Origin: Seonamhaeicola sp.
GTDB taxonomy: Bacteria; Bacteroidota; Bacteroidia; Flavobacteriales; Flavobacteriaceae
DNA length: 64,000 nucleotides
Assembly: GCF_028281565.1 (NCBI RefSeq)
Contig: NZ_JANQJQ010000006.1
Location: 124,001-188,000, forward strand
Direction: 5' to 3'
Shown: piece by piece, positions 37,239-58,708 of the stretch
Position numbering within the stretch: the first letter of the stretch is position 1
Layout: each line of letters opens with the position of its first letter
Program-made: the position numbers and the translations under genes
Notes under the pieces: generated by a model
The model's input: the letters and a program-made list of their open reading frames with translations, nothing else
Told to the model about the DNA's origin: nothing
The model's database searches: none

Positions 37239-37239
37239 A

Positions 37240-38373: not shown

Positions 38374-38392
38374 GTAATTGTACGGTTTTATA

Positions 38393-39643
38393 TTATTCAG
38401 CTAAAAAGCTATTGGGTTTAAATGGTATAGCTAAATCCGCTAATTTGGATTTATCTAATTTTTGTCCGGATTTAATAAATCTGGTACCTAAAACATAGGC
38501 TTTGGCAAAGTTTACCGCATCAACGGCCAGTAACTCATCATCTTTGAAGTACCATGCAGAAAAACTGTTGTCTGCTTCTTCATCTCTAATTACAATATCG
38601 TTAAAGCCATTGGATAAGCCTACCATTTGAAGTTTTACATCAAACTGATCTGACCAAAACCAGGGAATGGTATCATAAACTACGTCTTCTCCACAAATGG
38701 CTTTAGCAGCAGCTTTTCCTTGGTCAACGGCATTTTGAACAGATTCTAAGCGTATGTTACACTTATAATGTGGATTATAATGATAGGTACAATCCCCTAT
38801 AGCGTAAATGTTCTCGTCATTGGTTCTGGCAGTTTCATCAACTTTAATACCGTTATCAATGTCTAATCCGGCTTCTGCAGCCAATTCTGTGTTTACGCGA
38901 ATACCAACACCAACAACAATTAAATCGGCTTCAAATTTTGTGTCATCGTCACATATCACAAGGTTGCTATGACCATTTTGTTCTATAGAAACTACATTTT
39001 TACTGGTTATAACATCAACATCATTGTTTTGATGTAGCTTCGTGAAAAACTCAGACATCACGGGAGCAGTAACTCGAGCAAGAATACGTTCTTCACGTTC
39101 TAAAACGACAACGGAGGCTCCCAGTTTCTTGAGGGAAGCGGCCGTTTCCAAGCCGATATAACCACCACCAATGACTACCACACGTTTTTTTCCGGAAGCA
39201 TTAAATGCTTTTCTGATATTAACGGCATCTTCGGCGGTTCGCATGGGGAACAGGTTTTTGGCCGTATCAATGCCCTTAATTGGCGGAATAAACGGTCTGG
39301 CCCCGGTGGCAATTATTAATTTATCATAAGACTGAACAGCCCCATCACTTAATGAAATGGCCTTGTCATTACGATTGATATTTTCAACGGCTATCCCAAG
39401 TTTTAGGGTAACCTGATCTGTTTCGTAGTTTTCCCTTGGGAACAGTAAACTCTGTTCGGTGCCTGCATCGCTTGTTAAATACGCTTTCGATAATGGAGGG
39501 CGGTGATACGGGAATTCTTTATCGATATCATAAAGGATAATCTGGCCTTCCCAGCCTTCACGGCGAAGGTTAAAGGCAAAATTTACACCCGCATGACTTG
39601 CCCCGATAACAACGCATACCTGACTCTTGGTTGTAGCGGACAT
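38393..39643 (-). CDS. Ferredoxin reductase (putidaredoxin-reductase-like, FAD/NADH)
   Basis: 416 residues. The FAD motif is VVIGASHAGVNFAFNLR at the N-terminus, the NAD motif VVVIGGGYIGLETAASLKKLG around residue 155, and the second FAD motif IYAIGDCTYHYN. It belongs to the putidaredoxin/rubredoxin reductase group, which passes electrons from NADH to a [2Fe-2S] ferredoxin. The gene lies 6 bp after the ferredoxin gene, which in turn follows the P450, so the three make a class I P450 electron chain. Confidence 0.92.
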   Translation of the reverse strand: MSATTKSQVCVVIGASHAGVNFAFNLRREGWEGQIILYDIDKEFPYHRPPLSKAYLTSDAGTEQSLLFPRENYETDQVTLKLGIAVENINRNDKAISLSDGAVQSYDKLIIATGARPFIPPIKGIDTAKNLFPMRTAEDAVNIRKAFNASGKKRVVVIGGGYIGLETAASLKKLGASVVVLEREERILARVTAPVMSEFFTKLHQNNDVDVITSKNVVSIEQNGHSNLVICDDDTKFEADLIVVGVGIRVNTELAAEAGLDIDNGIKVDETARTNDENIYAIGDCTYHYNPHYKCNIRLESVQNAVDQGKAAAKAICGEDVVYDTIPWFWSDQFDVKLQMVGLSNGFNDIVIRDEEADNSFSAWYFKDDELLAVDAVNFAKAYVLGTRFIKSGQKLDKSKLADLAIPFKPNSFLAE

Positions 39644-39649
39644 AATTAA

Positions 39650-39958
39650 TTATTTAGCAACGGTCAACACAAGCCCGTCCAGGGCATCGCTCACTTTTAA
39701 CTGACATGATAAACGACTGTACTCACTAACGTTTTCATCAAATTCCAACATGTCATTTTCTAATTCATCCGGGGCACCTGTTACATTCCATTGATCCGGA
39801 TTCACATGCACATGACATGTAGCACATGAGCAAACACCCCCACAATCGCCATCAATACCTTTGATTTTATTTTGAACTGCTAATTCCATAACAGATCCGT
39901 TAGTTCCTTCTACTGTAGTTGTTTTTCCGTCGCTGGTTTTAAATGTTATTTTTGCCAT
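39650..39958 (-). CDS. [2Fe-2S] ferredoxin of the adrenodoxin/putidaredoxin type
   Basis: 102 residues. The cluster ligands are in GDCGGVCSCATCHVHV (C-x5-C-x2-C) with the fourth Cys in RLSCQL about 36 residues later. The acidic surface EELENDMLEFDENVSEYS near the third ligand is typical of P450-partner ferredoxins. It lies between the P450 and reductase genes (23 bp and 6 bp spacers). Confidence 0.95.
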   Translation of the reverse strand: MAKITFKTSDGKTTTVEGTNGSVMELAVQNKIKGIDGDCGGVCSCATCHVHVNPDQWNVTGAPDELENDMLEFDENVSEYSRLSCQLKVSDALDGLVLTVAK

Positions 39959-39981
39959 TTTTAGTGTTTTAATGTTTTATT

Positions 39982-41142
39982 TTAAAGTTTGTTAAATTTT
40001 ACCTGAATGCTATCGAACCCGACTTTACGTTCAAACTCATCAAGGTCTTCTATATTTTCCTTACAACCTAAAATTTCCATAGATTTTACTTTTTGAGTAA
40101 GGGTAGTCAAAAGGACTTTCATGATTTGACGGGCATGGGTAGCCCCTAAACAATTATGGGTTCCAAAGCCAAATGCTACATGCGGATTTACTTTTCGGTC
40201 CAGAACCACTTCATTAGCATTTTCAAAAACGCGTTCATCTCTGTTGGCAGCGGCCCAGCACATAGAGATTCTACTTTGTGCTTTTACGGCATGTTCGCAA
40301 ACTTGAGTATCTTCTGTTACCACACGCCCCATTTGTGTCAGTGGTGAAAAGTAACGGATCAACTCTTCAATGGCGGTATTCATTATTTCCGGCTCATCAC
40401 GTAAGCGTTGTAATGATGCCGGGTGGTCCGCAAAATAGGCTATAGAATTGGTAACCGCATTAATAACCGTATCCCTACCACCTGCAAAAGTCAATACCAG
40501 AACACCTTTTACCTCTTCCTTGGTCATTTTTTTACCATGAACTTCTGAGGCCAATAGCACCGAGTATAAGTCATCCCCCGGATTGGCAATAGCTTTGTCT
40601 ATTTGGGCATCTATATAATCGTATAGTATGTTGGCTTTATCGGCATCCAAAGCGGTGTCTTCACTTCTGAATACATGGGTTCCCCAGGATATCCATAACT
40701 CGGACTCCTCATAAGGGATGTTTAGTAAAAGTGTCAAAGCTCTGGATTGTAATTTTAAAGAGAATTCTTCTACAACCTCTAAGCTGCCTTTTTCTAAAGC
40801 TTCATCTACAACCCCGTTAATTATATCGGTCAATTGGGCCTGATAAGCGTCTTCCAGAGGACGCTTAAACCAAGGGTCCAATAAGTCTCTATAACCTTTA
40901 TGTTCCGGTGGGTCCACTTCAAAAGGAATTTGACGTGTCTCTCTAATGTGAACTTCAGAAGGTATTACAATACGTCCAACTTCTTCACCACCAGATTGAA
41001 AGGTCTTCCAGTTATGTGCGCATTTACGAACATCTTTATGGCCAAGTACCATTACAACCGGGTCATTCTGATCGTTCATTTCACCAAAACCTTTACCTTC
41101 TCTGGCTTCTTTAAACGGGTCTGAAAGTGTGCTTTTTTTCAT
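39982..41142 (-). CDS. Cytochrome P450, probable 6-O-methyl-galactose O-demethylase
   Basis: A 386-residue soluble bacterial P450. The heme ligand is Cys331 in FGFGTHNCLGATHARQ; the I-helix motif is FAGGRDTV (Thr225) and the ExxR pair is Glu260/Arg263. There is no membrane anchor. P450s in this setting, with ferredoxin, reductase and ADH inside an agar/porphyran locus, demethylate 6-O-methyl-D-galactose in Zobellia and Formosa, giving galactose and formaldehyde. The assignment here rests on context plus family type; substrate residues cannot be checked by eye. The gene heads a minus-strand operon opposite an AraC-type regulator. Confidence 0.88.
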   Translation of the reverse strand: MKKSTLSDPFKEAREGKGFGEMNDQNDPVVMVLGHKDVRKCAHNWKTFQSGGEEVGRIVIPSEVHIRETRQIPFEVDPPEHKGYRDLLDPWFKRPLEDAYQAQLTDIINGVVDEALEKGSLEVVEEFSLKLQSRALTLLLNIPYEESELWISWGTHVFRSEDTALDADKANILYDYIDAQIDKAIANPGDDLYSVLLASEVHGKKMTKEEVKGVLVLTFAGGRDTVINAVTNSIAYFADHPASLQRLRDEPEIMNTAIEELIRYFSPLTQMGRVVTEDTQVCEHAVKAQSRISMCWAAANRDERVFENANEVVLDRKVNPHVAFGFGTHNCLGATHARQIMKVLLTTLTQKVKSMEILGCKENIEDLDEFERKVGFDSIQVKFNKL

Positions 41143-41347
41143 CTTTACAGTTTAGTTTTATCAATTCGGTTCGGAGTAAATCCACTCTATGGATTCCTCA
41201 TTTTTTAAAGTGTGTTTAGGGCGAACAAACTTTCAAGGATACAAATATTGCCATTAAATACATATGATAATTATCTTATTTTGCTGAATAAGTAAACTAT
41301 TTTGCGTTATATTTTATATTTTGCTTAAAATTTAGGCATAATAGACT

Positions 41348-42187
41348 ATGAAACCGGTATTAGAGCAAATAAAATTAGGTGAAAAGAGATCTATTCTGGC
41401 TTTCAAATATTCGGGAGAAGATTTTGATGCGCCGTGGCATTTTCATCCGCAACATGAGCTTACTTTTATAACTAAAAGTGTAGGGACAAAATTTATTGGT
41501 GATTATGTGGGCTCTTATCAACCCGGTGAGTTGGTGTTATTACGATCTTATTTACCACATTGTTGGAAAAATTTCCAGGAGCAGGAAAAACCGGAATCCA
41601 TAGTTATTCATTGGAACAAAGGTATTTATTCCAGAGTACCTGAACTTGAAGATTTGTTTAATATGTTAAAAGCGGCTTCCAGGGGCATTATCTTTTCTGC
41701 TGAAGATGTGGTACGTTTAAAACCCGGAATTGAACATTTATTGGATGTAAGAGGGCACACCTTGTATCTCAATTTATTGGAATTGCTGTTGGATCTATCC
41801 AAATGCAAATTCAAATACTTATCTCACGCTAGTTTTGAAGATGATATTCCAACAGAATACGGTAGTAGAATGTCTAAGATCCATGATTTTATAGAAGCGA
41901 ATTATCAGCGCAAAATATTTTTAAAGGAAATGGCAGATCTGGTAAATATGTCTGAACATTCATTTTCTCGCTTTTTTAGTAAGATGATGGGCAGGCCTTT
42001 TTTTACATTTTTAAACGAATACCGAATCAATATTGCCAGCAGAATGTTAATTGATACCGATTGGTCTGTTGCCCAAATTGGTTTTGCATGCGGCTATGAA
42101 TCATTGCCCTTCTTTCATAAGCAGTTTAAAAAGGTAAAACATGTTACGCCTAATAAGTATAGGAGTAAACATTTGGCCAATAGCTAA
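41348..42187 (+). CDS. AraC-family transcriptional regulator
   Basis: 279 residues. An N-terminal cupin-like sugar-sensing region (FDAPWHFHPQHELTFI, YQPGELVLLRSYLPHCW) precedes a C-terminal double helix-turn-helix from about residue 175: IFLKEMADLVNMSEHSFSRFF and SVAQIGFACGYESLPFFHKQFKK. It is divergent from the P450 operon across a 205-bp gap and likely controls it, perhaps with galactose or 6-O-methyl-galactose as signal (inference). A strong terminator follows. Confidence 0.92.
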   Translation: MKPVLEQIKLGEKRSILAFKYSGEDFDAPWHFHPQHELTFITKSVGTKFIGDYVGSYQPGELVLLRSYLPHCWKNFQEQEKPESIVIHWNKGIYSRVPELEDLFNMLKAASRGIIFSAEDVVRLKPGIEHLLDVRGHTLYLNLLELLLDLSKCKFKYLSHASFEDDIPTEYGSRMSKIHDFIEANYQRKIFLKEMADLVNMSEHSFSRFFSKMMGRPFFTFLNEYRINIASRMLIDTDWSVAQIGFACGYESLPFFHKQFKKVKHVTPNKYRSKHLANS

Positions 42188-45596: not shown

Positions 45597-48500
45597 TTAG
45601 AAATTTAACTGAACCCCTAACATAAACTGACGCGTAACAGGATAACTACCACTGTCTACGCCACGAGTAAATAGGCCGTCCCCACCAACTTCGGGATCAT
45701 AGCCTGTATAGCTTGTAAATGTAAATGGGTTTGTAGAAGTTAAAAATACTCTGACTTTGTCAATCCCTGAAGTTTCTGTAATACCGGGAACGGTATAACC
45801 TAAAGTTAATGTCCTTATTCTTAAATAGCTTCCGTCTTCCAGGAAATAATCTGATGCAGCCCTAACATTACTGTGGAAAGCATTTTGTCTGAATGTCGGG
45901 ATATCGGATGTTGGGTTTTGAGGGCTCCACATATCCAATAAGTCTCTGTGTCTTCCTCCGGTATAAGCGTAAAGTTTTGCACCATTATATATTTCAGTGC
46001 CACCAACATAGTAACCTTGAACATCAAAGTCAAACCCTTTATACTGTAAGTTTAAGTTTAAACCGGCCTCAAATTCCGGTTGTCCGGACCCTGAATAAAC
46101 TCTATCGTTGTCATTAATGACACCATCTCCATTAGCATCTTTATATCTCATGTCACCAAGTTGTGGCGTACTTACATTACTTAGATCTAACTGGTTATAT
46201 TCATCCAGTTCGGCCTGAGTTTTAATGACACCATCCGTTTGGAATAAGAAGAATGCACCGGCTTCATATCCTTCGGCCAAAAACGTTGTAAATTCAACAT
46301 TGTTTCCTCTGGATTGTATTGGTCTACCGTTGGCGTAGCCTCTTTCAACACCATTTAAATCAGTAACTTCGTTGATGTTTTTGGTAAATGTACCGGCTAT
46401 ACTGAATTTTAAATCGCCAATTTGGTCTTTATAGCTGGCGGCAATTTCAATTCCTTTATTAAACATGTTACCGGCGTTAACGTTTATAAAGTTAAATTGA
46501 GTGGCTGCCCTGGGTTGATGCGTACCTGAAGATGGCGCTATACGTTGCTGTAATAGCATGTCTCTTTTGTCATTTTGATACAAGTCCGCCGTAATATTTA
46601 ATCTATTCCTGAACATCCCCAGTTCAATACCAATATTCTTTGATATAGTTGTTTCCCAGAAAATATCCGATGTATAACGTCTTTGAACAGAGCCGAATTC
46701 AAGGTCTTCATCAAAACCAAAAGGATAATTTATTCCTGTTTCAATTACCGGTTGATAAGAGTAATCTGAAACACCTTCATACCCAAGTTCCGCCCAACTA
46801 CCTCTTATCTTAAGAGAGTTGATAAAAGGCACATTAAACCAATTTTCGTCATGAACGTTCCACCCTGCAGAAAAGCCATAAAAGTCTCCATACTTATTGG
46901 CACTTGAAAATTTAGAAGAACCATCACGCCTGTAACTTGCAGATAATAAATACTTTCCGGCGTAGTTATACTGAACCCTTCCCAGTTTACCTGCTAACGT
47001 TCGGTTGATATCGAATGAATTTGGTTTTACACCTTCCGCTCCGGCACCTAAGGTTTGAATATCATTACTTGCGTTTTCATCAAATATGACACCTACACCT
47101 AAGGTTCTTGACTTAAAGCGTTCATAAGATACAACACCTAACAAGTTTAAGTTATGCTGACCAAAACTTGTAGCATAATTTAATATATGCTCTATGGTTT
47201 CTCTTTTGGTAAAGATGTAATCTTCATCTAATGATGCCTGAGGTCTGGATGCGGTTGCGTTAAATACGCCATCTCTGGAGAAGGCCAAATATTGAGGTTG
47301 GAAGAATTTTCTAAAGAAATTCCACTCGTTTCTACCAAGGTTTAATTTGTATTTTAAGCCTTTAAGAACTTCATATTCCAAATTAAGAGCAATATTGTTA
47401 GACTTTACTTCTCTTTCATCAATATTGTCTAATTGTCTGGACAAGAAACTATAAAAAATTTCGTTTCCTACATCTAACTCCACACTATTTTGTCCTACGC
47501 TGGGAATAGTGCTTAGTGGTCTGGCCCAGGGCGCTTGTCCAATGGCATATTCGTATAAAGACCAGGGTTCCTGTGTACGGTTTTCAGTAGTAAAACCTAT
47601 AGTAGCAAAGGCCTTGAACTTACCTTTATGGAACTGACCGGTAATTCTGTTTGATAAACGATTAAAACCGGAATTAATTAAAACACCATCTTGTTTAAAG
47701 TAGTTGGTTGCAAAGTTGAATGTTAAGTCCTGAACACCTCCTGAAAGGTTTAAGTTAACATTTTGTACGATTGCGTTATCGTTTTGTACATCTCCAACAA
47801 AGTCTGTGTCAAAATCTAAGGCATCCGGTTGAAAGAAGAACGTTAATGGTTCCGTGCCTAATTGTTCGGTTGTTACCTCTAAGTTGTACAATTGCTCTAC
47901 GGTATTCATTAAAGGGGTTCCTGAAGTAATGTTCTGGATACCGGTGTAAGTAGACAGATCTACTTTCATGTTACCGGACTTCCCTTTTTTAGTGGTGATA
48001 AGGATGACACCACCGGTTGCTCTAATACCGTAGATTGCGGCAGAAGCACCATCTTTTAAGATATCTATAGATTCAATTTGTTCCGGTGGTATGTTTGGAT
48101 TGCCTTCTTGCGGAATGTTGTCCACAATATATAAAGGCTGACCACCATTAACAGAGGCCAAACCACGAATTTGTACATTGGCAGCTTCTCCGGGCCTACC
48201 GCTGGCGGCCTGAATATTAACCCCGGCAACTTTACCCTGAATGGCTGCCCCTAAGTCCGCCACAGGTGCTTTAACAATTTCGGCAGCGCTTACTTTTGCA
48301 ACAGCTCCGGTAACCTCTTTCTTTTTCTGGGTACCATAACCTACTACCACAACTTCTTCAAGTTGCGATAAGTTTTCTTCAAGGGTTACGTTAATTGTTG
48401 TTTTACTACCTACAGAGACTTCTCTGGTAGTATAACCAATAAAGCTAAAAACCAACACATCATTTGGTTGGGCGCTTATTTCATAGTTTCCGTCAAAATC

Positions 48501-48689
48501 AGTTGCTGTACCGGTGGTGGTATCTTTTACCAAAACAGTAACTCCCGGTAAAGGAAGCCCTCCTTCGGCAGATACTACTCCTTTGATAGTTTGACTTTGA
48601 GCGTGAATACTTCCACAAATAAGAGTAAACATGACAACTAAAAACGCATGTTTAATCTTTTGTTTCATACAAAAGTTCAATTTCATCAT
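45597..48689 (-). CDS. SusC/RagA-family TonB-dependent transporter (first pair)
   Basis: 1030 residues. The signal peptide ends at GSIHAQ; the ATG at 48668 (MKQKIKHAFL) is an equally possible start. A carboxypeptidase-like domain (TIKGVVSAEGGLPLPGVTVL) is followed by the SusC-specific plug (LEEVVVVGYGTQKKKEVTGAV, ILKDGASAAIYGIRATGGVILI) and a beta-barrel ending RQFMLGVQLNF. It would import agaro- or porphyran-oligosaccharides with its SusD. On its promoter side a CTTGTCAAG site (48772-48764, minus) recalls the motif shared with the GH86, regulator and porter genes. Confidence 0.95.
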   Translation of the reverse strand: MMKLNFCMKQKIKHAFLVVMFTLICGSIHAQSQTIKGVVSAEGGLPLPGVTVLVKDTTTGTATDFDGNYEISAQPNDVLVFSFIGYTTREVSVGSKTTINVTLEENLSQLEEVVVVGYGTQKKKEVTGAVAKVSAAEIVKAPVADLGAAIQGKVAGVNIQAASGRPGEAANVQIRGLASVNGGQPLYIVDNIPQEGNPNIPPEQIESIDILKDGASAAIYGIRATGGVILITTKKGKSGNMKVDLSTYTGIQNITSGTPLMNTVEQLYNLEVTTEQLGTEPLTFFFQPDALDFDTDFVGDVQNDNAIVQNVNLNLSGGVQDLTFNFATNYFKQDGVLINSGFNRLSNRITGQFHKGKFKAFATIGFTTENRTQEPWSLYEYAIGQAPWARPLSTIPSVGQNSVELDVGNEIFYSFLSRQLDNIDEREVKSNNIALNLEYEVLKGLKYKLNLGRNEWNFFRKFFQPQYLAFSRDGVFNATASRPQASLDEDYIFTKRETIEHILNYATSFGQHNLNLLGVVSYERFKSRTLGVGVIFDENASNDIQTLGAGAEGVKPNSFDINRTLAGKLGRVQYNYAGKYLLSASYRRDGSSKFSSANKYGDFYGFSAGWNVHDENWFNVPFINSLKIRGSWAELGYEGVSDYSYQPVIETGINYPFGFDEDLEFGSVQRRYTSDIFWETTISKNIGIELGMFRNRLNITADLYQNDKRDMLLQQRIAPSSGTHQPRAATQFNFINVNAGNMFNKGIEIAASYKDQIGDLKFSIAGTFTKNINEVTDLNGVERGYANGRPIQSRGNNVEFTTFLAEGYEAGAFFLFQTDGVIKTQAELDEYNQLDLSNVSTPQLGDMRYKDANGDGVINDNDRVYSGSGQPEFEAGLNLNLQYKGFDFDVQGYYVGGTEIYNGAKLYAYTGGRHRDLLDMWSPQNPTSDIPTFRQNAFHSNVRAASDYFLEDGSYLRIRTLTLGYTVPGITETSGIDKVRVFLTSTNPFTFTSYTGYDPEVGGDGLFTRGVDSGSYPVTRQFMLGVQLNF

Positions 48690-49159
48690 ATATTTAGTTT
48701 AGTTAAATGCTTCGAAATTATGAAGATGGCGCACATGTTAACTTATTTTCAACTCTATTATAACTTGACAAGTGCGAAATTTTGAAAGAAAAAAACTTGA
48801 TTAAAACTTAATTTTAAATTTGTAAAATACTTAAAATCAGTTGTTTAACAATTAAATTCTTAGTTTCTATGGTTTTTTATCAAATTATTAACTGAATGAT
48901 TTAAGGTAAATAGTCCCAAATTTGTTATCCGATACTTGTTATATTGTATGTGTGCTATTTTTTCTTGACATTTTTAGTTTACTCAGCATTATTTAATGAT
49001 TTTATTCCCTGAGAATGAGGTTTTTATTATAGAAAAATCAACTTTTAGATAAATAAAAAATTTATGGGTCATTTACCCGGTTGTGAAGTTTATGTCAAGT
49101 TTGTTTTCATAGTTATAGGAGCAGTTTAACCTATTTTAGCAGTTGCCAAATATGCTAAA
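48690..49159. promoter_or_regulatory. Divergent control region between susC and the GH86 gene
   Basis: A 470-bp A/T-rich gap. On the plus strand TTGTGAAGTTT (49081) is repeated 11 bp later as ATGTCAAGTTT (49092), and TATTTTAG at 49132 begins exactly 39 bp after the TGTCAAG core (49093). On the minus strand CTTGTCAAG (48772-48764) lies 50 bp before a TAATTTCG box (start 48720); a half site CTTGACA is at 48964-48970. No ORF of note and no stem-loop terminator is seen. Confidence 0.65.
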
Positions 49160-51808
49160 ATGATGTTAATGAAAAGAACTGCAGTTTATTTTTTATGGAT
49201 CCTTTTTCCCGGATTATGTTGCGTTAATGCCCAAACAAGTGTTACTATAAACTTCAATGTAAAACATACGGTTGGTGGTATTGATACCTTTAAGAGAGAA
49301 AAATTTATTACAATTCATGCAAACCAAACCGAAAATGAATGGGATGGAGATAATTTCACATCCGATTTAAGAGATCACTTTTTGAATGGTTATGATGTTT
49401 ATTTGGGTAGAGATACAGGTGGTATTACATGGCACTTAAACAACATGGCCGAAGATCCGGCGAGGCCTGGTTTTGCTGATCCTGCCGAAATTGCATCAAA
49501 AGGATTGAACTCAAGAAATAACTATGCTTCCAAAACACACCTGCATGCATATGAAAATAGAAAATTGAACCATGTAGTGGCTGCTCAATTACATCCTTTT
49601 TGGACTGGAGAAAGTCAACGTGCAACTAGTAATACAGGATGGAAATTGGCAAGTCCTATCGCCACAGGTGAATATATGGGGCGTTATTTTAACGAATTTC
49701 ATGGAGGTAACGGACAACCTGAACCAGACTGGGTTGAGGTTATTAACGAACCTGCTTATGAAGCCCTTGGCGGAAAAAGCAATTATACGAATTCTTTACA
49801 GGAGATTGCCGATTTTCATGTGGAGGTGGCAGAAGCTATTCGTGCTCAGAATGCCAATTTGAAAATAGGAGGTTATACGGCCGCTTTTCCTGATTTTGAA
49901 ACCGGTAATTTTCAAAGGTGGATGAATAGAGACAAACTTTTTATTGATGTGGCCGGTGAGAAAATGGATTTTTGGTCATGGCATTTGTATGATTTTCCGG
50001 TTTTTGGAGGCAAGATGGATTTACGTTCCGGAAGTAATCTGGAGGCCACTTTTGATATGCATGATCATTACAGCATGCTAAAGCTAGGTGAAACTAAACA
50101 ATATGTTATTTCAGAGTACGGAGCTCAGACACATGATTTAAGAAATGATCCCTGGAGCCCCTATAGAGATTGGTTATTTATTAAAGCTCAAAACGCCATG
50201 ATGATGTCTTTTATGGAAAGACCGGATGCTATTGCCATAGCTATACCCTTTACCATTGTGAAAGCAGAATGGGGTTTTAACAATACTCATAACGTCCCTT
50301 ATGGCGCTCGTTTAATGAGAAAATCTAATGAGCCTGCCAGTTATACGGGGCAATGGGTATATACGGATCGTGTTAAGTTTTATGAATTATGGCAAAATGT
50401 AAAAGGCACCAGGGTTGATACCAGATCGGATAATTTAGATATTCAGGTTGATGGTTATGTTGATGGAGCTAAAGCGTATGTTATTCTAAATAATTTATTG
50501 TTTACTGATGAAGAGATTGATCTTTCTATGTTTGAATTAAGTGGGAAAACCATGTCTTCAATAAATAAAAAACACTTATACCTTAGTGGGAATGCACCGG
50601 TTTTTGTAGACGAATCAATACCTGTAAATACTACCGCTGTTACCTTGAACGCTGAAAGTACCATGATTTTAGAAATCGTTTTTGACGATACAGTATCCAT
50701 AGACGAAACAAATGAAGAGGTCAAATACTATGCTACGGAATATTTGAAACCGATCACCGCAAATCAACCGGTAACGTTTCAAGTAAATCATGTTGTAAAG
50801 AACACTTATGGCGAAGCAATATTAAGAGTTGGAATTGGTAGAGATCATGGAAAAGAATTGAAACCAATTATAAAGGTGAACACTACCGAGATAAATGTAC
50901 CTGATAATTGGAGAGGTTATGACCAGGCAGATAAAGGAAGATTTTTTGGGACATTAGAGATTCCTGTTCCTTATGATATATTAGGTAATGATAATACCAT
51001 TTCCGTTGAATTTCCTGACTCCGGGGGGCATGTAAGCAGTTTGATACTACAAGTATTCAATTTTAGCAGTAATATTAGAGAAATACATCCTTCTCAATTG
51101 CCTTCCGGTAACTATAGTATTAAAGGAACTGGTGCAACGTGTGTTGGTAAAAATAACGGTAGTATTAATGTGGTGACTACATTCACTCAAAACTATAAAG
51201 TTGCCATAACAGGGCCTGACGGTTATAATGAAAGTTTTGACTTCAATAATGTGTTGGATATTCAGGATTTGTCCCCGGGAACATATCATATGGTTATGAC
51301 AGTGCCTGCATATCCGGATTATAGTATTGAGTTTGTAGTTGAAATTGGTGAGCCTGAACCGCTTAGTGTAACGTCTAAAGTAAGCGATTCAAAAAATACG
51401 ATTACGCTTAACCTTGAAGGGAGTAGTTATTACTATATAGATATTAATGGAAAGGAAATTCAAACAAGTTCTGGTATTATTACGCTAGACCTGGTTGATG
51501 GTGTTAACACTTTAAAAGTTAGCACAGATAAAGATTGCCAGGGCACCTATGAGGACACTTTTTTTATTGATACATCTTTCTTTTTGTTTCCTAACCCTGT
51601 CCGGGAAGAACTTACAGTTGTTGTATCTGAAAAATGGATCAATTCAACCGCACAAATTTATAGTGTCATGGGTACGTTGGTAAAAGAAATGTTGATTTCT
51701 AATTCTCAAAATAAAATACCGGTTGGCAACTTAAGACAAGGTGTGTATATAATCACTTTTGAAAAAAATGACAAGAGAATGGGCTTCTCTAAATTTGTCA
51801 TTAAATGA
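49160..51808 (+). CDS. GH86 beta-agarase/beta-porphyranase, T9SS-secreted
   Basis: 882 residues. The signal peptide ends at CVNAQ (the ATG at 49169 is an alternative start). A GH86 TIM-barrel covers about residues 28-420: GRDTGGITWHLN, the acid/base Glu197 in VEVINEPAY and the nucleophile Glu319 in YVISEYGAQ. Two beta-sandwich domains follow (to about 620), then Ig-like repeats, and a T9SS sorting tail (YSVMGTLVKEML...GVYIITFEKNDK) at the end. GH86 enzymes cut beta-1,4 bonds in agarose or porphyran; the nearby P450 favours porphyran, but sequence alone does not decide. It is probably the main extracellular depolymerase of the locus. Confidence 0.93.
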   Translation: MMLMKRTAVYFLWILFPGLCCVNAQTSVTINFNVKHTVGGIDTFKREKFITIHANQTENEWDGDNFTSDLRDHFLNGYDVYLGRDTGGITWHLNNMAEDPARPGFADPAEIASKGLNSRNNYASKTHLHAYENRKLNHVVAAQLHPFWTGESQRATSNTGWKLASPIATGEYMGRYFNEFHGGNGQPEPDWVEVINEPAYEALGGKSNYTNSLQEIADFHVEVAEAIRAQNANLKIGGYTAAFPDFETGNFQRWMNRDKLFIDVAGEKMDFWSWHLYDFPVFGGKMDLRSGSNLEATFDMHDHYSMLKLGETKQYVISEYGAQTHDLRNDPWSPYRDWLFIKAQNAMMMSFMERPDAIAIAIPFTIVKAEWGFNNTHNVPYGARLMRKSNEPASYTGQWVYTDRVKFYELWQNVKGTRVDTRSDNLDIQVDGYVDGAKAYVILNNLLFTDEEIDLSMFELSGKTMSSINKKHLYLSGNAPVFVDESIPVNTTAVTLNAESTMILEIVFDDTVSIDETNEEVKYYATEYLKPITANQPVTFQVNHVVKNTYGEAILRVGIGRDHGKELKPIIKVNTTEINVPDNWRGYDQADKGRFFGTLEIPVPYDILGNDNTISVEFPDSGGHVSSLILQVFNFSSNIREIHPSQLPSGNYSIKGTGATCVGKNNGSINVVTTFTQNYKVAITGPDGYNESFDFNNVLDIQDLSPGTYHMVMTVPAYPDYSIEFVVEIGEPEPLSVTSKVSDSKNTITLNLEGSSYYYIDINGKEIQTSSGIITLDLVDGVNTLKVSTDKDCQGTYEDTFFIDTSFFLFPNPVREELTVVVSEKWINSTAQIYSVMGTLVKEMLISNSQNKIPVGNLRQGVYIITFEKNDKRMGFSKFVIK

Positions 51809-51930
51809 AAACTTACTAGACAATATATAAAAATACTGAATTAAAAGACTTTACTTTTTAATTTTTAAACCAACAATAGCTTAATAACTAAAAATTAAGT
51901 AAAAACTGATTTTATTGAGGTTTTCAGGCG

Positions 51931-52003
51931 GTGTCAAGATACTAAAGTTCAGTTTTTGTCAAGTTTTAAACTAGACATTCTTGCGGATTAAGCTCTATAT
52001 TTG
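51931..52003 (+). promoter_or_regulatory. Control region of the TPR/LuxR regulator gene with TGTCAAG motif
   Basis: AGTTTTTGTCAAGT (51951-51964) has its TGTCAAG core at 51957; the -7 box TATATTTG starts at 51996, exactly 39 bp later. A second TGTCAAG occurs at 51932. No TTG lies at the expected -33 position, which suits an activator-dependent promoter. Confidence 0.7.
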
Positions 52004-52041
52004 TAATCAACTAACTAAATTAAACTTGATATTTAACTGCT

Positions 52042-53676
52042 ATGGATGCTATATTCAAAATAGTTGCGTGTAACTTATTTTTAATGTTAACTTCTTACAG
52101 TAACGCAACCACATTAATTCAAAATGATTCATTAAATCAAAGTGCCATTCATTTAAGGCAAAATGCAAATGAGATAAGATATAAATATCCTGATAGTGCA
52201 TTAGTGCTATTTGAAAAAAGTTATCAGCTATTCTTAAAATCCGGAGATACTATTGAAGCGGCTAATGCGCTTAGGTCAAAAGCAGATATTTTTGAAAACA
52301 GGGCCAATTATTCAAAATCTTATGACGCCTATTGGAGTGCCTTAATGCTTACAGATAGATTAGAAGACCAAAGTATAAAAGCTTTAATTTATCATAGGTT
52401 AGGGAGGGTTTACAGTTACTTTAAGAGAGAAGACGAGTCGTTGAAGTATCTCAATAAGGCACTTGAAATTCAAAAGGAAATGGCAAAAAGCGGGACTATT
52501 GATGAAACAGAGGTGATTCCTTACTATTACTTTATTGCTAACACTTACAGGGAGCTGAACAATATTGAAAAGACAGAGGTCTATCTTGACAGTTGCTATC
52601 AGATCATGCCGGAAACTGAGATAGATTTTCCCAAAGCACTTATACATTTTGAAAAAACGCATGTTTTATTTAAAACTAATCAGCAAGAAAAAGCTTTGAA
52701 AGTAATGGATAGCATTTTTCCGTGGTTTGAAGAAAACAATGCCTCTTATTTGGTTATATTTTATAAGCATTGGGGAGATATTCATTCTGATTTAAATCAC
52801 TTAAAAAAAGGTGAAGACTACTATACTAAAGCTTTGGGAATTTCAAAAGAATACAATTCCCATATAGATTTTACACCTTTAGTGCATGAAAAATTATCAG
52901 AGTTATATTTAAAGCGGAATGATTATGCCAATGCATTTTTACACCTTCAAACAGCCAAAGATTTAGACAGAAAGTTTTTTGATAGCAGGAGTTCAAACAA
53001 TGTGTCTTTATTGGAAATAAAGGATTCCTATAGAAAAGAAAAACTAAAGCAGGAACAGCAAATACAGGAGCAATATTTGAAACAACTGGAGCAGGAAGAG
53101 AAAATCAGAAACCTTCAGATAATTATTTTAATGGTATCGGTTGTTTTCGTAGTGGTTATTGCATTTATTTATGTAAAACACTTAAGAACCAAACATAGAG
53201 CAGAGAAGGAACTTATTAGAAAGAATCAGGAACTGGAAAACAAAAAAACGCAAGAGTTATTAGAGTTAAAGAACAAAGAACTGGCAGCCTCTGCTCTACA
53301 GTTGATTGAAAAGGAGGAGTTTCTAAAAACCCTTAAGTCTAAGGTTAGGGGGAAAGATGAAAAGATAAAAGTACATGAGGTCAATAAAGTATTGCGTTCT
53401 ATATCTGTAAGTAATAACCAGAATTGGGAAGAATTTAAATTGCGTTTTATTGATGTTAATAAAGAGTTTTATAATAAAATGTTTGCAAAGTACCCTAATC
53501 TTAGTCAGGGTGATCAAAAGATATGTGCCCTGATAAAACTGAATTTTTCCAGCAAAGAAATGTCAAGGTTATTGGGGATTTCTGTTGAGTCTGTACACAC
53601 ATCACGTCATAGAATCAGGAAAAAAATGAACCTTCCAAGAAGTATTAATCTGGAGGACTATATAAACTCATTGTAA
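52042..53676 (+). CDS. Membrane TPR protein with C-terminal LuxR-type helix-turn-helix (putative locus activator)
   Basis: 544 residues. An N-terminal signal/membrane segment leads to about six TPR-like helical repeats (residues 30-320: ALIYHRLGRVYSYFKREDESLKYLNKALEI), probably periplasmic. One transmembrane helix (about 357-378, IIILMVSVVFVVVIAFIYV) is flanked by coiled coils. A cytoplasmic LuxR-like HTH ends the protein (LSQGDQKICALIKLNFSSKEM...RLLGISVESVHTSRHRIRKKM). No kinase or receiver domain is present, so it is a one-component transmembrane regulator. Its own promoter carries the shared TGTCAAG motif, making it the best candidate for binding that motif (inference). Confidence 0.85.
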   Translation: MDAIFKIVACNLFLMLTSYSNATTLIQNDSLNQSAIHLRQNANEIRYKYPDSALVLFEKSYQLFLKSGDTIEAANALRSKADIFENRANYSKSYDAYWSALMLTDRLEDQSIKALIYHRLGRVYSYFKREDESLKYLNKALEIQKEMAKSGTIDETEVIPYYYFIANTYRELNNIEKTEVYLDSCYQIMPETEIDFPKALIHFEKTHVLFKTNQQEKALKVMDSIFPWFEENNASYLVIFYKHWGDIHSDLNHLKKGEDYYTKALGISKEYNSHIDFTPLVHEKLSELYLKRNDYANAFLHLQTAKDLDRKFFDSRSSNNVSLLEIKDSYRKEKLKQEQQIQEQYLKQLEQEEKIRNLQIIILMVSVVFVVVIAFIYVKHLRTKHRAEKELIRKNQELENKKTQELLELKNKELAASALQLIEKEEFLKTLKSKVRGKDEKIKVHEVNKVLRSISVSNNQNWEEFKLRFIDVNKEFYNKMFAKYPNLSQGDQKICALIKLNFSSKEMSRLLGISVESVHTSRHRIRKKMNLPRSINLEDYINSL

Positions 53677-53730
53677 TTTTTAGTCTAGTTCTGTCTGCAG
53701 CTTTATTAGTGTTTATAGGTATCCTGTATA

Positions 53731-53782
53731 GTTTTTGTCAAGTGCTTATAATGAGAATCACTATTTCTTTGCGCTAAATTTG
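53731..53782 (+). promoter_or_regulatory. Control region of the sugar porter operon with TGTCAAG motif
   Basis: GTTTTTGTCAAGTG (53731-53744) has its core at 53736; the -7 box TAAATTTG (53775-53782) begins exactly 39 bp later. A degenerate half site TGTATAG lies 11 bp upstream at 53725. No -33 TTG is in place. Confidence 0.7.
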
Positions 53783-53822: not shown

Positions 53823-55385
53823 ATGTCAAGTAAACAACTATTCACCATTCGAATTGCTGCGATTGTGGCGTTGGGAGGTTTCTTATTGGGATTTGACGCC
53901 TCTGTAATTTCGGGCGTTGTAAAATTCATTGAACCGGAATTCAATTTAACGAAAATACAATTGGGATGGGCTGTAAGTTCCATCACTTTAACCGCTGCCT
54001 TTGGTATGATAATAGCGGGCCCGATGAGTGATAAATATGGCAGAAGAAGATTGCTGAAATATGCTGCAGTTCTGTTTACCATTTCTGCTGTAGGTTCTGC
54101 CCTGGCCGGAACATTCTTTTGGTTAATTATCTTCAGAATGATTGGAGGATTAGCAGTTGGAGCCGCTTTAATTATTGCGCCTATGTATATTGCTGAAGTG
54201 GCACCTCCCGAAAAACGGGGCCAGCTGGTGTCCTTCAATCAACTAAATATTGTTATTGGTATTTCCATTGCCTTTTTTACTAATTATTTAATCCTTAAGT
54301 GGGGGAATTCTGAGGCCGCCTGGACAGAAAGTATAGGGTTGGGAAAATGGAATTGGCGTTGGATGCTGGGATTGGAAGCATTACCGGCCATTTTGTACTA
54401 CTTCGGATTATTCATGGTGCCTCGCAGTCCGCGATGGTTGATGGTTCAAAACAGAAAAGCAGAAGCACTTGAAGTGATGAAAAAAGTGGCCACAGAAGAC
54501 CAAGCCGAAAATCAGATACATGAAGTTGCGCAAAGTATTTTAGAAGATCAAAATAAAGAAAAATCAAAGCTTGGAGATTTATTCAAAAGATCTTTGAGGA
54601 ATGTCATTATAATAGGTCTTATTGTTGGGATCTTTCAACAAATAGTGGGGATTAACGCCGTGCTATTCTACGCCCCCATGATTTTTGAACAAACGGGTAT
54701 TGGTACTGACGCCTCTTTTGTTCAGGCCGCCCTGGTTGGGTTAACCAACCTTGGATTTACCATAGTAGCTATGCTGGCCATCGATAAATTTGGCAGAAAA
54801 CCATTGCTTATTGTTGGTATGGTTGGAATCGCAGTTTGTTTGTTCCTATTGAGCTATGAATTTAATAATGCTACCTACACCTTAAGCCAGGAGGCAATTG
54901 CAAATCTTCCGGCCGAAATAAACAGGGAGCAAATTACGCCACTTCAGGATAAAGTCTTTGATAATGACCTTGATTTTAAAGCAGCCATTGCTTCAGCATT
55001 GGGAGAAGCAGCCGCTGGAGATCATGAAGCCACTTTGGTTACGGCTTCGGCAAAAATGAACACCATTTTAATTTTAATTGGTATCATTGGTTTTGTGGGG
55101 GCTTACGCCATGTCCATTGGCCCCGTAATGTGGGTATTGTTTTCAGAACTCTTCCCAAACAAAATCAGAGGAATTGCTATTTCATTTGTAGGGTTGGTCA
55201 ATTTGGGAGTTGCCTTCCTGGTACAATTATTATTTCCATGGCAATTGGCAACACTTGGTAATTCATTAACCTTTTTGGTCTTCGGCATATTTGCCGTTTT
55301 AGGATTTATTTTAATGTGGTTAAAGGTGCCCGAAACCAAAGGGAAGTCGCTTGAAGAATTGGAAGCGCTTCTCGTAAAAGAATAA
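53823..55385 (+). CDS. MFS sugar porter (XylE/GalP-like family)
   Basis: A 520-residue transporter with 12 membrane segments. Family signatures include GFDASVISGVVKF, MSDKYGRRRLLK, the APPEKRGQLVSFNQL loop, VPRSPRWLM, GIFQQIVGINAVLFYAP, KFGRKPLLIVG and PETKGKSLEELE. Between late helices is a hydrophilic insert of about 65 residues (NNATYTLSQEAIANL...), usual in Bacteroidetes sugar porters. It would bring galactose or another monosaccharide from the periplasm into the cytoplasm. First gene of the porter-GH50-lipoprotein operon. Confidence 0.92.
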   Translation: MSSKQLFTIRIAAIVALGGFLLGFDASVISGVVKFIEPEFNLTKIQLGWAVSSITLTAAFGMIIAGPMSDKYGRRRLLKYAAVLFTISAVGSALAGTFFWLIIFRMIGGLAVGAALIIAPMYIAEVAPPEKRGQLVSFNQLNIVIGISIAFFTNYLILKWGNSEAAWTESIGLGKWNWRWMLGLEALPAILYYFGLFMVPRSPRWLMVQNRKAEALEVMKKVATEDQAENQIHEVAQSILEDQNKEKSKLGDLFKRSLRNVIIIGLIVGIFQQIVGINAVLFYAPMIFEQTGIGTDASFVQAALVGLTNLGFTIVAMLAIDKFGRKPLLIVGMVGIAVCLFLLSYEFNNATYTLSQEAIANLPAEINREQITPLQDKVFDNDLDFKAAIASALGEAAAGDHEATLVTASAKMNTILILIGIIGFVGAYAMSIGPVMWVLFSELFPNKIRGIAISFVGLVNLGVAFLVQLLFPWQLATLGNSLTFLVFGIFAVLGFILMWLKVPETKGKSLEELEALLVKE

Positions 55386-55415: not shown

Positions 55416-57515
55416 ATGAGAACATTTAAAAATTTAGCTTTTTTAGCGGTATTACTGAGCTTAGTAAGCTGTCAGGAAAAGCAGCAAGAGCATAAACTAT
55501 TGTTATTTGATTTTGAAGATATTGCACAGGCGAAACTGGTAAAACCACAAGACGCCACATTTGAACTTATTGAAGGTGAAACCAATAATTATATAAAAGT
55601 AAATAATGGTTTTACCATTAGAGAAACAGGCGTGCGTCTGGTGAGTCCGGAAAATCAATCATGGGATTTGTCGGGTTACTTTCAGGTAAAGGCGGATGTT
55701 TCTAATGCAGGCGATGAAGCTATTCAGGTAGAATTATTCGTGGGGAATGATCCGGATGGGCTGTTGCGTTGGTATTGTTCAGATTATGTGGACTTAGAAC
55801 CGGATGAAAGTAAAACCATTACGGTTGATTTAGCCTGGACGCCCTGGATTCATAAGCCTCAAATTGAAGTAAACGGACTAAGAGGCGTCCCCGGAAAGAT
55901 TAAAGCCGACCTTACAAAGGTCACTGAGTTTACTTTTTGCTCACGTTACGCCACCCAGCCCAATAATTTTACAGTGGATAACGTTAGGGCGGTTGGAAAA
56001 TACGAAGAGAAAAGTCCTGAAGGCTTCTTTCCATTTATTGATGAATATGGGCAATACATTCATAAAGATTGGCAAGGTAAAATGCATTTTGATAAAGAAC
56101 TTAAGGCATTTGCAAAAAAGGAACTGGAATATTTAAAGGCTTCCAAAGGCGCTGAAAATATTGGGAAATTTGGTGGTTGGACAGCCGGTCCGAAACTGGA
56201 GGCTACGGGATTTTTCAGAACCGAAAAAGTAAATGGCAAATGGTGGATGGTGGATCCCGAAGGCTATTTGTTCTGGACAGCCGGATTAAATTGTGTGGCC
56301 TCTGAATCAGTATTTACCGGTATTAGCCATAGAGAAGATTATTTCAAATTTTTACCTGAAAGAGACAGTATTTTAGGTCAGTTTTACGGTACGGGAACCC
56401 ATGCATCTCATGGGTTTTATAAAGACAAACTTCCTTACGACTCCTATAATTTTTATCAAAGTAATTTGTACAGAAAATATGGAGATAATTGGTTGGAGAC
56501 CTTTCAAAATATGGCGCACTTAAGAATTAAGGATTGGGGTATGAATACGATTGGGTTTATGTCTGATTTTGGAGCTACACGTCAACAAAGAACACCTTAC
56601 GTTGGGTCAATATGGATTAGAAATACCCCAAAAATTGAAGGATCAAATGGTTTTTGGGGTAAATTTCATGATGTTTTCGATCCTAAATTTAGAGAAGCGG
56701 TCAGAGCATCGGTAGAAAATCAAAAAGAAGGCGCAAATGACCCATGGTGTATTGGCTATTTTATAGATAATGAATTGTCCTGGGGTCTATTAGGGTCTCT
56801 TTCGGTTGGTACTTTGAAAAGCCCCGCCACGCAACCGGCTAAAATAGAATTTGTTAAAGATTTAAAAGCTAAATATGTAGACATTACCAAGTTAAATGAG
56901 TATTGGGGCTCTAAATACATTTCCTGGAAGAACCTGCTGGAATCTACGGAAGCACCTAATAAAGAATTGGCAAAAGAAGATTTAGTTACTTTTTATGAGA
57001 AGATAGCGCACACGTATTTCAGTACCATTTGTGAAGAATTAAAACGCGTAGCACCAAATCAAAACTATTTAGGTTGTAGGTTTGCCTGGGCAAATAATGA
57101 TGTGGTGTTAACAGCAGCGAGTCAGTATTTAGATATCATGAGTTTCAATAAATATGAATACAGTATTGAAAAGATGTCTTTGCCCGAAGGCGTTGATAAA
57201 CCTGTACTGATAGGTGAATTCCATTTTGGAGCCCTGGATAGAGGGAATTTTCATATAGGAATTAAAAAAGCAAAAGATCAGGCAGAGCGAGGGCAAATGT
57301 ATCAGGACTACATTCAAGGTGCTTTACGTAATCCCTACATAGTGGGCGCACATTGGTTCCAGTATTTGGATGAACCTAATACAGGTAGATTTGACGGTGA
57401 AAATTACAATGTTGGTTTTATTGATGTTTGTGATAATCCGTATCAGGAACTCATTGAAAAGGTCAAAGAGACTACTTACTCCATGTATGAGTACCGAAGT
57501 AATCATAAAAAATAG
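55416..57515 (+). CDS. GH50 beta-agarase lipoprotein
   Basis: 699 residues. The lipobox is LVSC (Cys19), so it is membrane-anchored rather than T9SS-secreted. An N-terminal CBM-like beta-sandwich (about 25-195) precedes a GH50 (beta/alpha)8 barrel: FFRTEKVNGKWWMVDPEGYLFW, the acid/base Glu453 in YFIDNELSWG, and the nucleophile Glu601 in LIGEFHFGALDRG. GH50 enzymes are typically exo-acting and release neoagarobiose, a fit for processing imported oligosaccharides in the periplasm. It lies 30 bp after the porter gene. Confidence 0.94.
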   Translation: MRTFKNLAFLAVLLSLVSCQEKQQEHKLLLFDFEDIAQAKLVKPQDATFELIEGETNNYIKVNNGFTIRETGVRLVSPENQSWDLSGYFQVKADVSNAGDEAIQVELFVGNDPDGLLRWYCSDYVDLEPDESKTITVDLAWTPWIHKPQIEVNGLRGVPGKIKADLTKVTEFTFCSRYATQPNNFTVDNVRAVGKYEEKSPEGFFPFIDEYGQYIHKDWQGKMHFDKELKAFAKKELEYLKASKGAENIGKFGGWTAGPKLEATGFFRTEKVNGKWWMVDPEGYLFWTAGLNCVASESVFTGISHREDYFKFLPERDSILGQFYGTGTHASHGFYKDKLPYDSYNFYQSNLYRKYGDNWLETFQNMAHLRIKDWGMNTIGFMSDFGATRQQRTPYVGSIWIRNTPKIEGSNGFWGKFHDVFDPKFREAVRASVENQKEGANDPWCIGYFIDNELSWGLLGSLSVGTLKSPATQPAKIEFVKDLKAKYVDITKLNEYWGSKYISWKNLLESTEAPNKELAKEDLVTFYEKIAHTYFSTICEELKRVAPNQNYLGCRFAWANNDVVLTAASQYLDIMSFNKYEYSIEKMSLPEGVDKPVLIGEFHFGALDRGNFHIGIKKAKDQAERGQMYQDYIQGALRNPYIVGAHWFQYLDEPNTGRFDGENYNVGFIDVCDNPYQELIEKVKETTYSMYEYRSNHKK

Positions 57516-57529
57516 TTTAACTTTAGCTC

Positions 57530-58708
57530 ATGATTGCTAAAAGGTATCAACTATTAATATTTTGCTCAACACTTTTAATGTTGAATTGCAGGCAAGGCTT
57601 AAAAAAGGACACCTTTGCTTACCATTTAGAGCAACTAAAACCTATAGACGGGCTTGAAGTATTAAAGTCAGGAGAATCAATGATAGCCGTTTCCGGGATT
57701 TATCAAGCCAGGGTTTTTGCAAGTTCCTCGAAAGGTATGAACGGGAGACCCTATGGTTGGTTTAGTTCAGATCTGATAGAGAATAATGAGCACGCCTCAA
57801 ACATGGCCTATTTGGGAGGTGAAAGCAGAATCTGGTTTGCTCCGGAATTGGGCAAATATTCTGTTTTCTTTGATGCCAATGCAGAACAGGTAGATGAAAA
57901 CATGCGGGCTCCACATGATTTAAATACTAAAAAGTTTACCGAAAAATTACGGACAGAGCATGCCATTACCTATGTTGGGGACATGGAAATTAAAAATAAT
58001 CACAACTATACATTTTCAATTAGCTTAGAACGGACCGTATCATTGCTTTCAAACAAACAGATTGAGCAAAACCTGGATATTAGTTTGGACCATATTTCCT
58101 ATGTTGCTTTTAGAGCCGAAACCACTATGACTAATAAGGGTTCTGAAAAATGGCATAAAGAAACCGGGTTATTATCCCTTTGGGAATTGGGCTGTATGAA
58201 TACAAGTGCGGATAACAGAGTGATCATTCCGTTGACAAAACAAACGGATTCTATCACAGAATATTTTACTAAAACCACCGGTGACAGGATGCAGATTAAA
58301 GATGCTGTGGTTTATTATAAAGCCGATGCCCGGGGGCTTAATAAAATTGGCACGCCACCACAGTTTACAAAAAATGTTATGGGGAGTTATTCTCCGGAAA
58401 ACAACTTACTTAACATTGTTACATTTAACTTTACAAATGATGGTGTTTATGTAAACTCATTACCGGAAAATAATACACCTTATACAGGCGATGTTATTAA
58501 TATCTTCAATGGAAACGTAGATACCGCTTTAGGACACAAATGGCCTTTTTATGAGTTCGAATCATCATCTTCGGTAAAAGAACTGGCTCCTAACGAATCA
58601 ATGTATCATTCACAAACCACTTACCATTTTGAGGGTGATTTTAATGCTTTAAATGCTATTTCCATAACTGTTTTAGGAGTGAATCTGAATGATATTCCAA
58701 AGTTCTAA
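57530..58708 (+). CDS. Lipoprotein of unknown function in the agar operon (DUF6786-like)
   Basis: 392 residues. The lipobox is MLNC (Cys20), placing it on a membrane. The remainder is beta-rich with NGRPYGWFSSDLIE, GGESRIWFAPELGKYSVFF and FEFESSSSVKELAPNESMYHSQTTYHFEGD. The closing pattern (aromatic strand, then Glu/His-containing strand) recalls galactose-mutarotase-like supersandwich proteins, and it resembles the uncharacterised DUF6786 group. It is 14 bp after the GH50 gene, so it probably acts on agar-derived sugars. An epimerase or binding role is a guess. Confidence 0.7.
   Translation: MIAKRYQLLIFCSTLLMLNCRQGLKKDTFAYHLEQLKPIDGLEVLKSGESMIAVSGIYQARVFASSSKGMNGRPYGWFSSDLIENNEHASNMAYLGGESRIWFAPELGKYSVFFDANAEQVDENMRAPHDLNTKKFTEKLRTEHAITYVGDMEIKNNHNYTFSISLERTVSLLSNKQIEQNLDISLDHISYVAFRAETTMTNKGSEKWHKETGLLSLWELGCMNTSADNRVIIPLTKQTDSITEYFTKTTGDRMQIKDAVVYYKADARGLNKIGTPPQFTKNVMGSYSPENNLLNIVTFNFTNDGVYVNSLPENNTPYTGDVINIFNGNVDTALGHKWPFYEFESSSSVKELAPNESMYHSQTTYHFEGDFNALNAISITVLGVNLNDIPKF

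Follow-up and report, generated by a model that had tools for sequence, protein, structure and literature searches.

A phased direct repeat upstream of agar genes in Seonamhaeicola, candidate operator of a putatively membrane-spanning TPR/HTH regulator

Introduction

A 64,000-nucleotide stretch of a Seonamhaeicola sp. genome (assembly GCF_028281565.1, contig NZ_JANQJQ010000006.1, positions 124,001 to 188,000; hereafter the window) contains an agar locus in which three genes, encoding a glycoside hydrolase of family 86 (GH86), a regulator, and a sugar porter, are each preceded by a direct repeat of 11-bp period, TGTnnAG-TTTT-TGTCnAGT. We consider it probable (roughly 0.78) that this motif is the operator of the regulator encoded at 52042, a tetratricopeptide repeat (TPR)/helix-turn-helix (HTH) protein that would act as a membrane-spanning one-component activator of SusR-like layout, controlling an agar regulon that includes its own gene. 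A sequence-only reading of the window had placed an activator site at a set distance from -7 boxes and pointed to the 52042 protein as a possible binder, a proposal supported both by recurrence of the site before agar genes and by the way the motif tracks the regulator gene; the regulator is assigned to the motif by co-occurrence and position.

The enzymes of agar breakdown in marine Bacteroidota are well described; an operator or tested regulator was not found in the literature searched (chiefly non-subscription journals), and neither was a description of the motif. What the present analysis adds is a precisely placed site together with a candidate protein to bind it, putative targets listed from several genera and from contigs that are not linked, and predicted transcription starts near 49144, 52008 and 53787; regulons would become predictable in other genomes.

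The direct repeat in the window

The three TGTCAAG cores (49093, 51957 and 53736) and their boxes, 39 bp away from start to start, were all found where the sequence-only reading had placed them. TGTCAAG occurs 14 times on the two strands of the window, and the longer word TTTNTGTCAAG is confined to these three cores. A degenerate upstream half, previously described before GH86 and the porter, is indeed present at both, 11 bp before the core; it is not limited to those two, as the regulator site carries AGTTCAG at 51946. The elements and the genes they precede are:

49082..49099, + strand: site before GH86, TGTGAAG-TTTA-TGTCAAG (other-genome matrix 21.2, composite 26.4)
49132..49139, + strand: TATTTTAG, -7 box of GH86, the weaker box, 39 bp after the core
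49160..51808, + strand: GH86 protein of beta-agarase type with a type IX secretion system tail, putative target (match to beta-agarase 8h97, 1129 bits)
51932..51938, + strand: additional TGTCAAG, 25 bp 5' of the regulator-site core
51946..51963, + strand: site before the regulator gene, AGTTCAG-TTTT-TGTCAAG (matrix 23.0, composite 29.8)
51996..52003, + strand: TATATTTG, -7 box of the regulator gene, 39 bp after the core
52042..53676, + strand: regulator with TPR, single span and C-terminal HTH, proposed activator (Pfam TPR, hydrophobicity, profile matches)
53725..53742, + strand: site before the sugar porter, TGTATAG-TTTT-TGTCAAG (matrix 28.3, composite 35.7)
53775..53782, + strand: TAAATTTG, -7 box of the porter, 39 bp after the core
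53823..55385, + strand: sugar porter of the major facilitator superfamily, putative target (family searches)

When a matrix built from repeat sites of other genomes was applied to the window, these three sites took the highest composite scores, followed by a site before the first susC (11.4), one within gene 55416 (10.4), and values of at most 4.6. With the repeat part held to at least 8 bits, only the three sites pass, compared with one site in the reversed window (composite 6.6). The pattern TGTCAAGT-N31-TAnnTTTG has two matches in the window, the regulator and porter promoters (the GH86 box deviates from it), vs. none in 100 shuffles. The three promoters do lie within 5 kb, as they might if one had been copied locally. 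Inspection by eye, however, reveals no additional likeness between site and box, the shuffles are empty, and the repeat turns up ahead of genes of related function both elsewhere in this genome, on other contigs, and in other genera. Chance or local duplication, already contradicted by the cross-genome matrix, can be given almost no credence.

The weak site before the first susC (48753..48770, - strand; TGTCAAG plus degenerate half, site part 5.9) had been read as a palindrome, CTTGTCAAG. That reading was dropped: the site is better described, weak though it is, as a member of the direct-repeat geometry, with an intact distal half (48770, minus strand), a degenerate proximal half, and the box TAATTTCG at 50 bp, counted from the first half.

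Promoter architecture

For comparison across genomes, nine homologues of the regulator were aligned and used as query; this yielded 191 relatives, of which the best 80 were used (loci L039-L118; 1.65 Mb), mostly from Flavobacteriaceae, plus members of Saprospiraceae, Cytophagia-type bacteria, and Bacteroidales. TGTnnAG pairs 11 bp apart number 79 in these loci; other distances between 8 and 39 bp give 0-10, and the reversed sequence gives 2 at 11 bp. Matrix sites of at least 12 bits total 148, in 67 of the 80 loci, compared with 6 in the reversed loci, and 84 of the 148 lie within 1 kb of the regulator gene. Among the 148, the distance from the second half to a TAnnTT box is 39 bp in 57 cases, 40 bp in 21 and 38 bp in 7, compared with a mean of 2.1 cases for each other distance. 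The fixed 39 bp proposed earlier thus holds as the mode, and for all three window sites, but not as a constant.

The repeat consensus across 76 non-redundant sites is TGTnnAGTTTTTGTCnAGT. These sites were aligned on the repeat alone, so that the box columns were not selected for; even so, T, A, T, T and T occupy positions +50, +51, +54, +55 and +56 in 46, 49, 62, 68 and 46 of the 76, and columns +50 to +56 resolve into a TAnnTTTG-type -7 box of flavobacterial sigma-A kind. A conserved -33 TTG is expected of sigma-A promoters in flavobacteria. None was found here: TTG occurs in at most 5 of the 76 sites at any position 16-30 bp before the box, extending to these sites the earlier remark that no -33 TTG is in place in the window. 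The TAnnTTTG-type consensus box of flavobacterial sigma-A occupies -12 to -5 (PMC9723704), which would place the starts of the two halves at about -62 and -51.

Recurrence in the same genome

A genome-wide scan for the spaced pattern, suggested by the sequence-only reading, gave 4 matches to TGTCAAG-N30..34-TAnnTTTG in 5.27 Mb vs. 1 for the reversed pattern. Allowing up to 3 mismatches, TGTATAGTTTTTGTCAAGT occurs at 16 places, vs. 4 for the reversed pattern. Nine of the 16 precede the genes for the porter, GH86, the regulator, GH2, GH117, two GH16 proteins, a SusC (start 352 bp downstream of its near match), and a small secreted protein; the GH117 match falls inside an over-long TTG-started frame, with a likely ATG start downstream of the site. 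The remaining seven comprise three within frames and four outside. Of these four, one precedes a transhydrogenase/alanine dehydrogenase-like gene and has a good box, one stands 42 bp ahead of a phosphofructokinase-like gene and lacks a box, one is near a contig end, and the last has no frame. On the other contigs, the box lies 39 bp away in the case of the genes for the AgaD-like, GH2 and secreted proteins and 38 bp away in that of GH117.

Several of these genes match agar enzymes: GH117 matches 3,6-anhydro-alpha-L-galactosidase (3p2n, 788 bits), and, of the two GH16 proteins, one matches beta-agarase C (6hy3, 336 bits), the other beta-agarase D (4asm, 283 bits). The GH2, SusC and secreted proteins are assigned a putative role in agar use because they share the site.

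A perfect repeat of TGTCAAG, followed at 39 bp by TAAATTTG, precedes the gene of the small secreted protein (L008 736-1503, minus strand, contig C4), and relatives of this protein stand behind the same site in loci L041, L089, L153 and L160. The protein has no Pfam match and is possibly an accessory protein for agar. Also behind the repeat is a glyoxalase/VOC-like gene (L132 1501-2151, contig C2), with a similar-looking gene in L099, from a Flammeovirgaceae metagenome-assembled genome. These site-bearing genes become candidates for agar use. At the transhydrogenase/alanine dehydrogenase-like gene (L027, contig C44), the site is a variant, TGTATAGGTTTTGCCTAGT, and TAATTTTA stands 39 bp on.

Targets in other genomes

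For 68 of the 76 non-redundant sites, a frame of at least 100 amino acids starts within 450 bp downstream; one site lies within a long frame. The 68 downstream proteins cluster as SusC-like (16), GH117-like (14), zinc dehydrogenases (6), GH2 (6), GH16-like (5), regulator (5), galactokinases (3), porphyranase/GH86-type (2), pfkB-type kinases (2), and small secreted proteins (2), with 7 singletons, some of which are named on our own reading. Pfam agrees for most (Plug 15; the GH43 clan model, hit by GH117, 14; GH2 6; ADH_N 6; TPR_12 5; GalKase 3; BPA_C 2; PfkB 2; GH16 2 of 5). Such a target set traces the path expected to lead from agar into central metabolism.

The regulator and its association with the motif

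The 52042 protein has 544 amino acids, TPR repeats (Pfam), a strong hydrophobic span at residues 360-378, and a weaker one at the N-terminus. Its C-terminal HTH weakly resembles EsrB (7vim, profile match, E 0.0028); in this region Pfam returns only Sigma70_r4_2, below its cut-off. Against the SusR model NF058541 the protein scores 31.7 bits over residues 152-533, below the cut-off of 480; the model has five matches in the genome, of which the 52042 protein is the best and none exceeds the cut-off. An AlphaFold model (60 sequences, mean pLDDT 83, pTM 0.58) predicts a TPR-like part of paired helices, a single long helix that passes through the span, and a C-terminal group of four short helices. 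A fold search with this model retrieved, among the matches listed, TPR and similar helical-repeat proteins, none bearing on the HTH.

A direct-repeat site stands before the regulator gene itself, and the strict motif follows this gene across genomes. In an even sample of the order (196 genomes; regulator presence defined as E<=1e-60), the motif occurs in 5/5 genomes with the regulator vs. 3/191 without (Fisher 2.4e-8). In a family sample of 299 genomes, which shares genomes with the order sample and in which, as there, related genomes are not independent, it occurs in 15/20 with the regulator vs. 3/279 without (Fisher 1.6e-18), with 40 matches in all vs. 3 for the reversed pattern. Excluding our own genome leaves 35 matches in the family sample, 31 in regulator-bearing and 4 in regulator-free genomes. 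All 31 lie outside frames of at least 150 amino acids; 22 precede a protein related to the first target set (8 at 100% identity, hence the same genes; one weak, at 24%), and 9 have no frame of 100 amino acids within 450 bp. Two of the four matches in regulator-free genomes fall within frames, and two precede proteins unlike the first target set. Site variants and regulators also co-diverge across 53 loci (Mantel r 0.28, 0/2000 permutations), a correlation to which common descent contributes.

The Pho box, bound by PhoB before phosphate genes, is likewise an 11-bp direct repeat with TGTCA-like halves, and the element here resembles it in geometry and in part of its sequence. The targets differ: no phosphate gene was recognized, either at the 16 near matches of the genome or in the set of 68 downstream proteins. 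The motif is rare in the order (8/196 genomes), whereas one would expect PhoB-type regulators to be common. A Pho-box-like site read by such a response regulator is therefore very unlikely.

Another agar-gene regulator might instead read the site; examples are an AraC-type protein (41348) and an IclR protein whose gene adjoins that of GH2, both encoded near motif-bearing genes. AraC homologues at E<=1e-40 occur in 15/196 genomes of the order sample, including all five with regulator and motif, although only three of those five (our own, G119 and G133) have one of at least 60% identity. In the 80 loci, homologues at E<1e-10 are found in 10 (AraC-type, all among the 67 with the motif) and 5 (IclR, 3 of them among the 67), and in the 350 bp upstream of the AraC gene no matrix site scores better than -12.0. 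We regard this attribution as unlikely, if the foremost competitor to the 52042 protein.

Somewhat less likely again is that the site is read by one of several TPR/HTH paralogues rather than by the 52042 protein alone, paralogues of ~40% identity sharing much the same half-site. Homologues of 38-45% identity adjoin the same repeat in other genomes, and our own genome encodes three regulator paralogues at E<=1e-60. Their loci (L035, L037 and L038), however, contain no TGTnnAG repeat in the stretches examined. Upstream of the paralogue on contig C46 (L037) lies a different, ACTACAT-type 11-bp direct repeat, AACTACATTTAAACTACATTT, with AATATTTG roughly 40 bp on; a repeat as long appeared in 1/1000 mononucleotide shuffles, this repeat having been found after the fact, and L035 and L038 have no 11-bp-repeat run of 8 or more. 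Each regulator paralogue may thus have its own half-site.

Several results weigh against assigning the motif to the 52042 protein as operator of an agar regulon, beyond the shared occurrence of AraC homologues. Loci L039-L118 were picked via the regulator, so the closeness of motif to regulator is partly ascertained, and 13 of the 80 lack a matrix site of 12 bits, with no clear excess of period 11 over periods 9, 10, 12 and 13. Five of the 20 regulator-bearing genomes of the family sample lack the strict motif, and just 13 of its 35 non-own matches have TAnnTT at 38-40 bp. In our own genome, the AgaC-like gene and the susC on contig C23 have the repeat with no box at 38-40 bp, and the loosest repeat pattern is not enriched (11 vs. 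8 reversed). The second susC of the window has no matrix site, and part of the locus may for that reason be under other control. Finally, porter and GH86 homologues mostly lack the site: it lies within 600 bp upstream of 1/13 porter matches and 3/7 GH86 matches, and in 16/50 loci with GH117. The expectation that the motif would be conserved in orthologous loci is thus borne out at the level of the regulon, in other genera, and holds only in part promoter by promoter; operon rearrangement may explain part of this patchiness.

Proposed mechanism and comparison with known systems

Returning to the 52042 protein as activator, we infer topology, ligand, dimer, binding and activation as follows. The TPR part, in the periplasm, would sense an agar-derived oligosaccharide, a signal suggested by the targets and by SusR. 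The cytoplasmic C-terminal HTH domains of two subunits would bind head to tail to the pair of TGTCAAG-like halves that, spaced by a single helical turn (11 bp), span about -62 to -45, directly 5' of the would-be -33 element. RNA polymerase would thereby be recruited to otherwise weak promoters with a TAnnTTTG-type box and no conserved -33 element: those of the porter-agarase genes, GH86, the GH16 agarases, GH117, GH2 and susC, as well as that of the regulator, which would activate its own gene (positive autoregulation).

This scheme resembles SusR and SusR-like proteins of Bacteroides, Bacteroidetes glycan activators with periplasmic sensing (SusR binds maltose in the periplasm), a C-terminal HTH, and operators predicted as direct repeats (PMC3878776). 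It differs in spacing, the halves lying 11 bp apart here and 67 or 77 bp, centre to centre, there. A long-spaced partner box of SusR type was sought and rejected: across 116 sites TGTnnAG is not over-represented at 67 or 77 bp upstream, and 3-5 have an extra TGTnnAG at -43, -42 or -32. Hybrid two-component system operators of Bacteroides are likewise direct repeats before polysaccharide genes, but with repeats about 21 bp apart and AraC-like regulators (PMC3878776). CgrA of the Zobellia carrageenan regulon is also flavobacterial and needed for normal growth on a red-algal polysaccharide, but belongs to the AraC family and serves another substrate (PMC5698469). The agar-induced genes ZGAL_4657-4669 of Zobellia galactanivorans (GH117, a TonB-dependent receptor and binding-protein pair, two regulators) fit an agar regulon by gene content; the part of the paper drawn on gives no operator (PMC5613140).

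A broader generalization, which we hold at somewhat less than even odds, is that membrane-tethered TPR/HTH one-component activators form a class present in several Bacteroidota orders, with one promoter architecture and a half-site particular to each paralogue, in which the place of the -33 element is taken by a direct repeat of 11-bp phase, at about -62/-51. If so, glycan regulons of marine Bacteroidota, agar among them, would be readable from DNA alone.

Other genes of the window

The remaining genes relevant to the locus are:

45597..48689, - strand: first susC, possible weak target (site composite 11.4)
55416..57515, + strand: beta-agarase (match 4bq2, 364 bits)
57530-58708: DUF6786 protein, its gene following those of the porter and the agarase

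The porter gene probably heads an operon that also includes 55416 and 57530, as judged from intergenic gaps of 30 and 14 bp. At 36438-42187, where the matrix finds no repeat site, genes for a cytochrome P450, a ferredoxin-reductase type protein, a zinc dehydrogenase, an esterase and an AraC regulator lie side by side, a set reminiscent of the demethylation of 6-O-methyl-galactose of porphyran.

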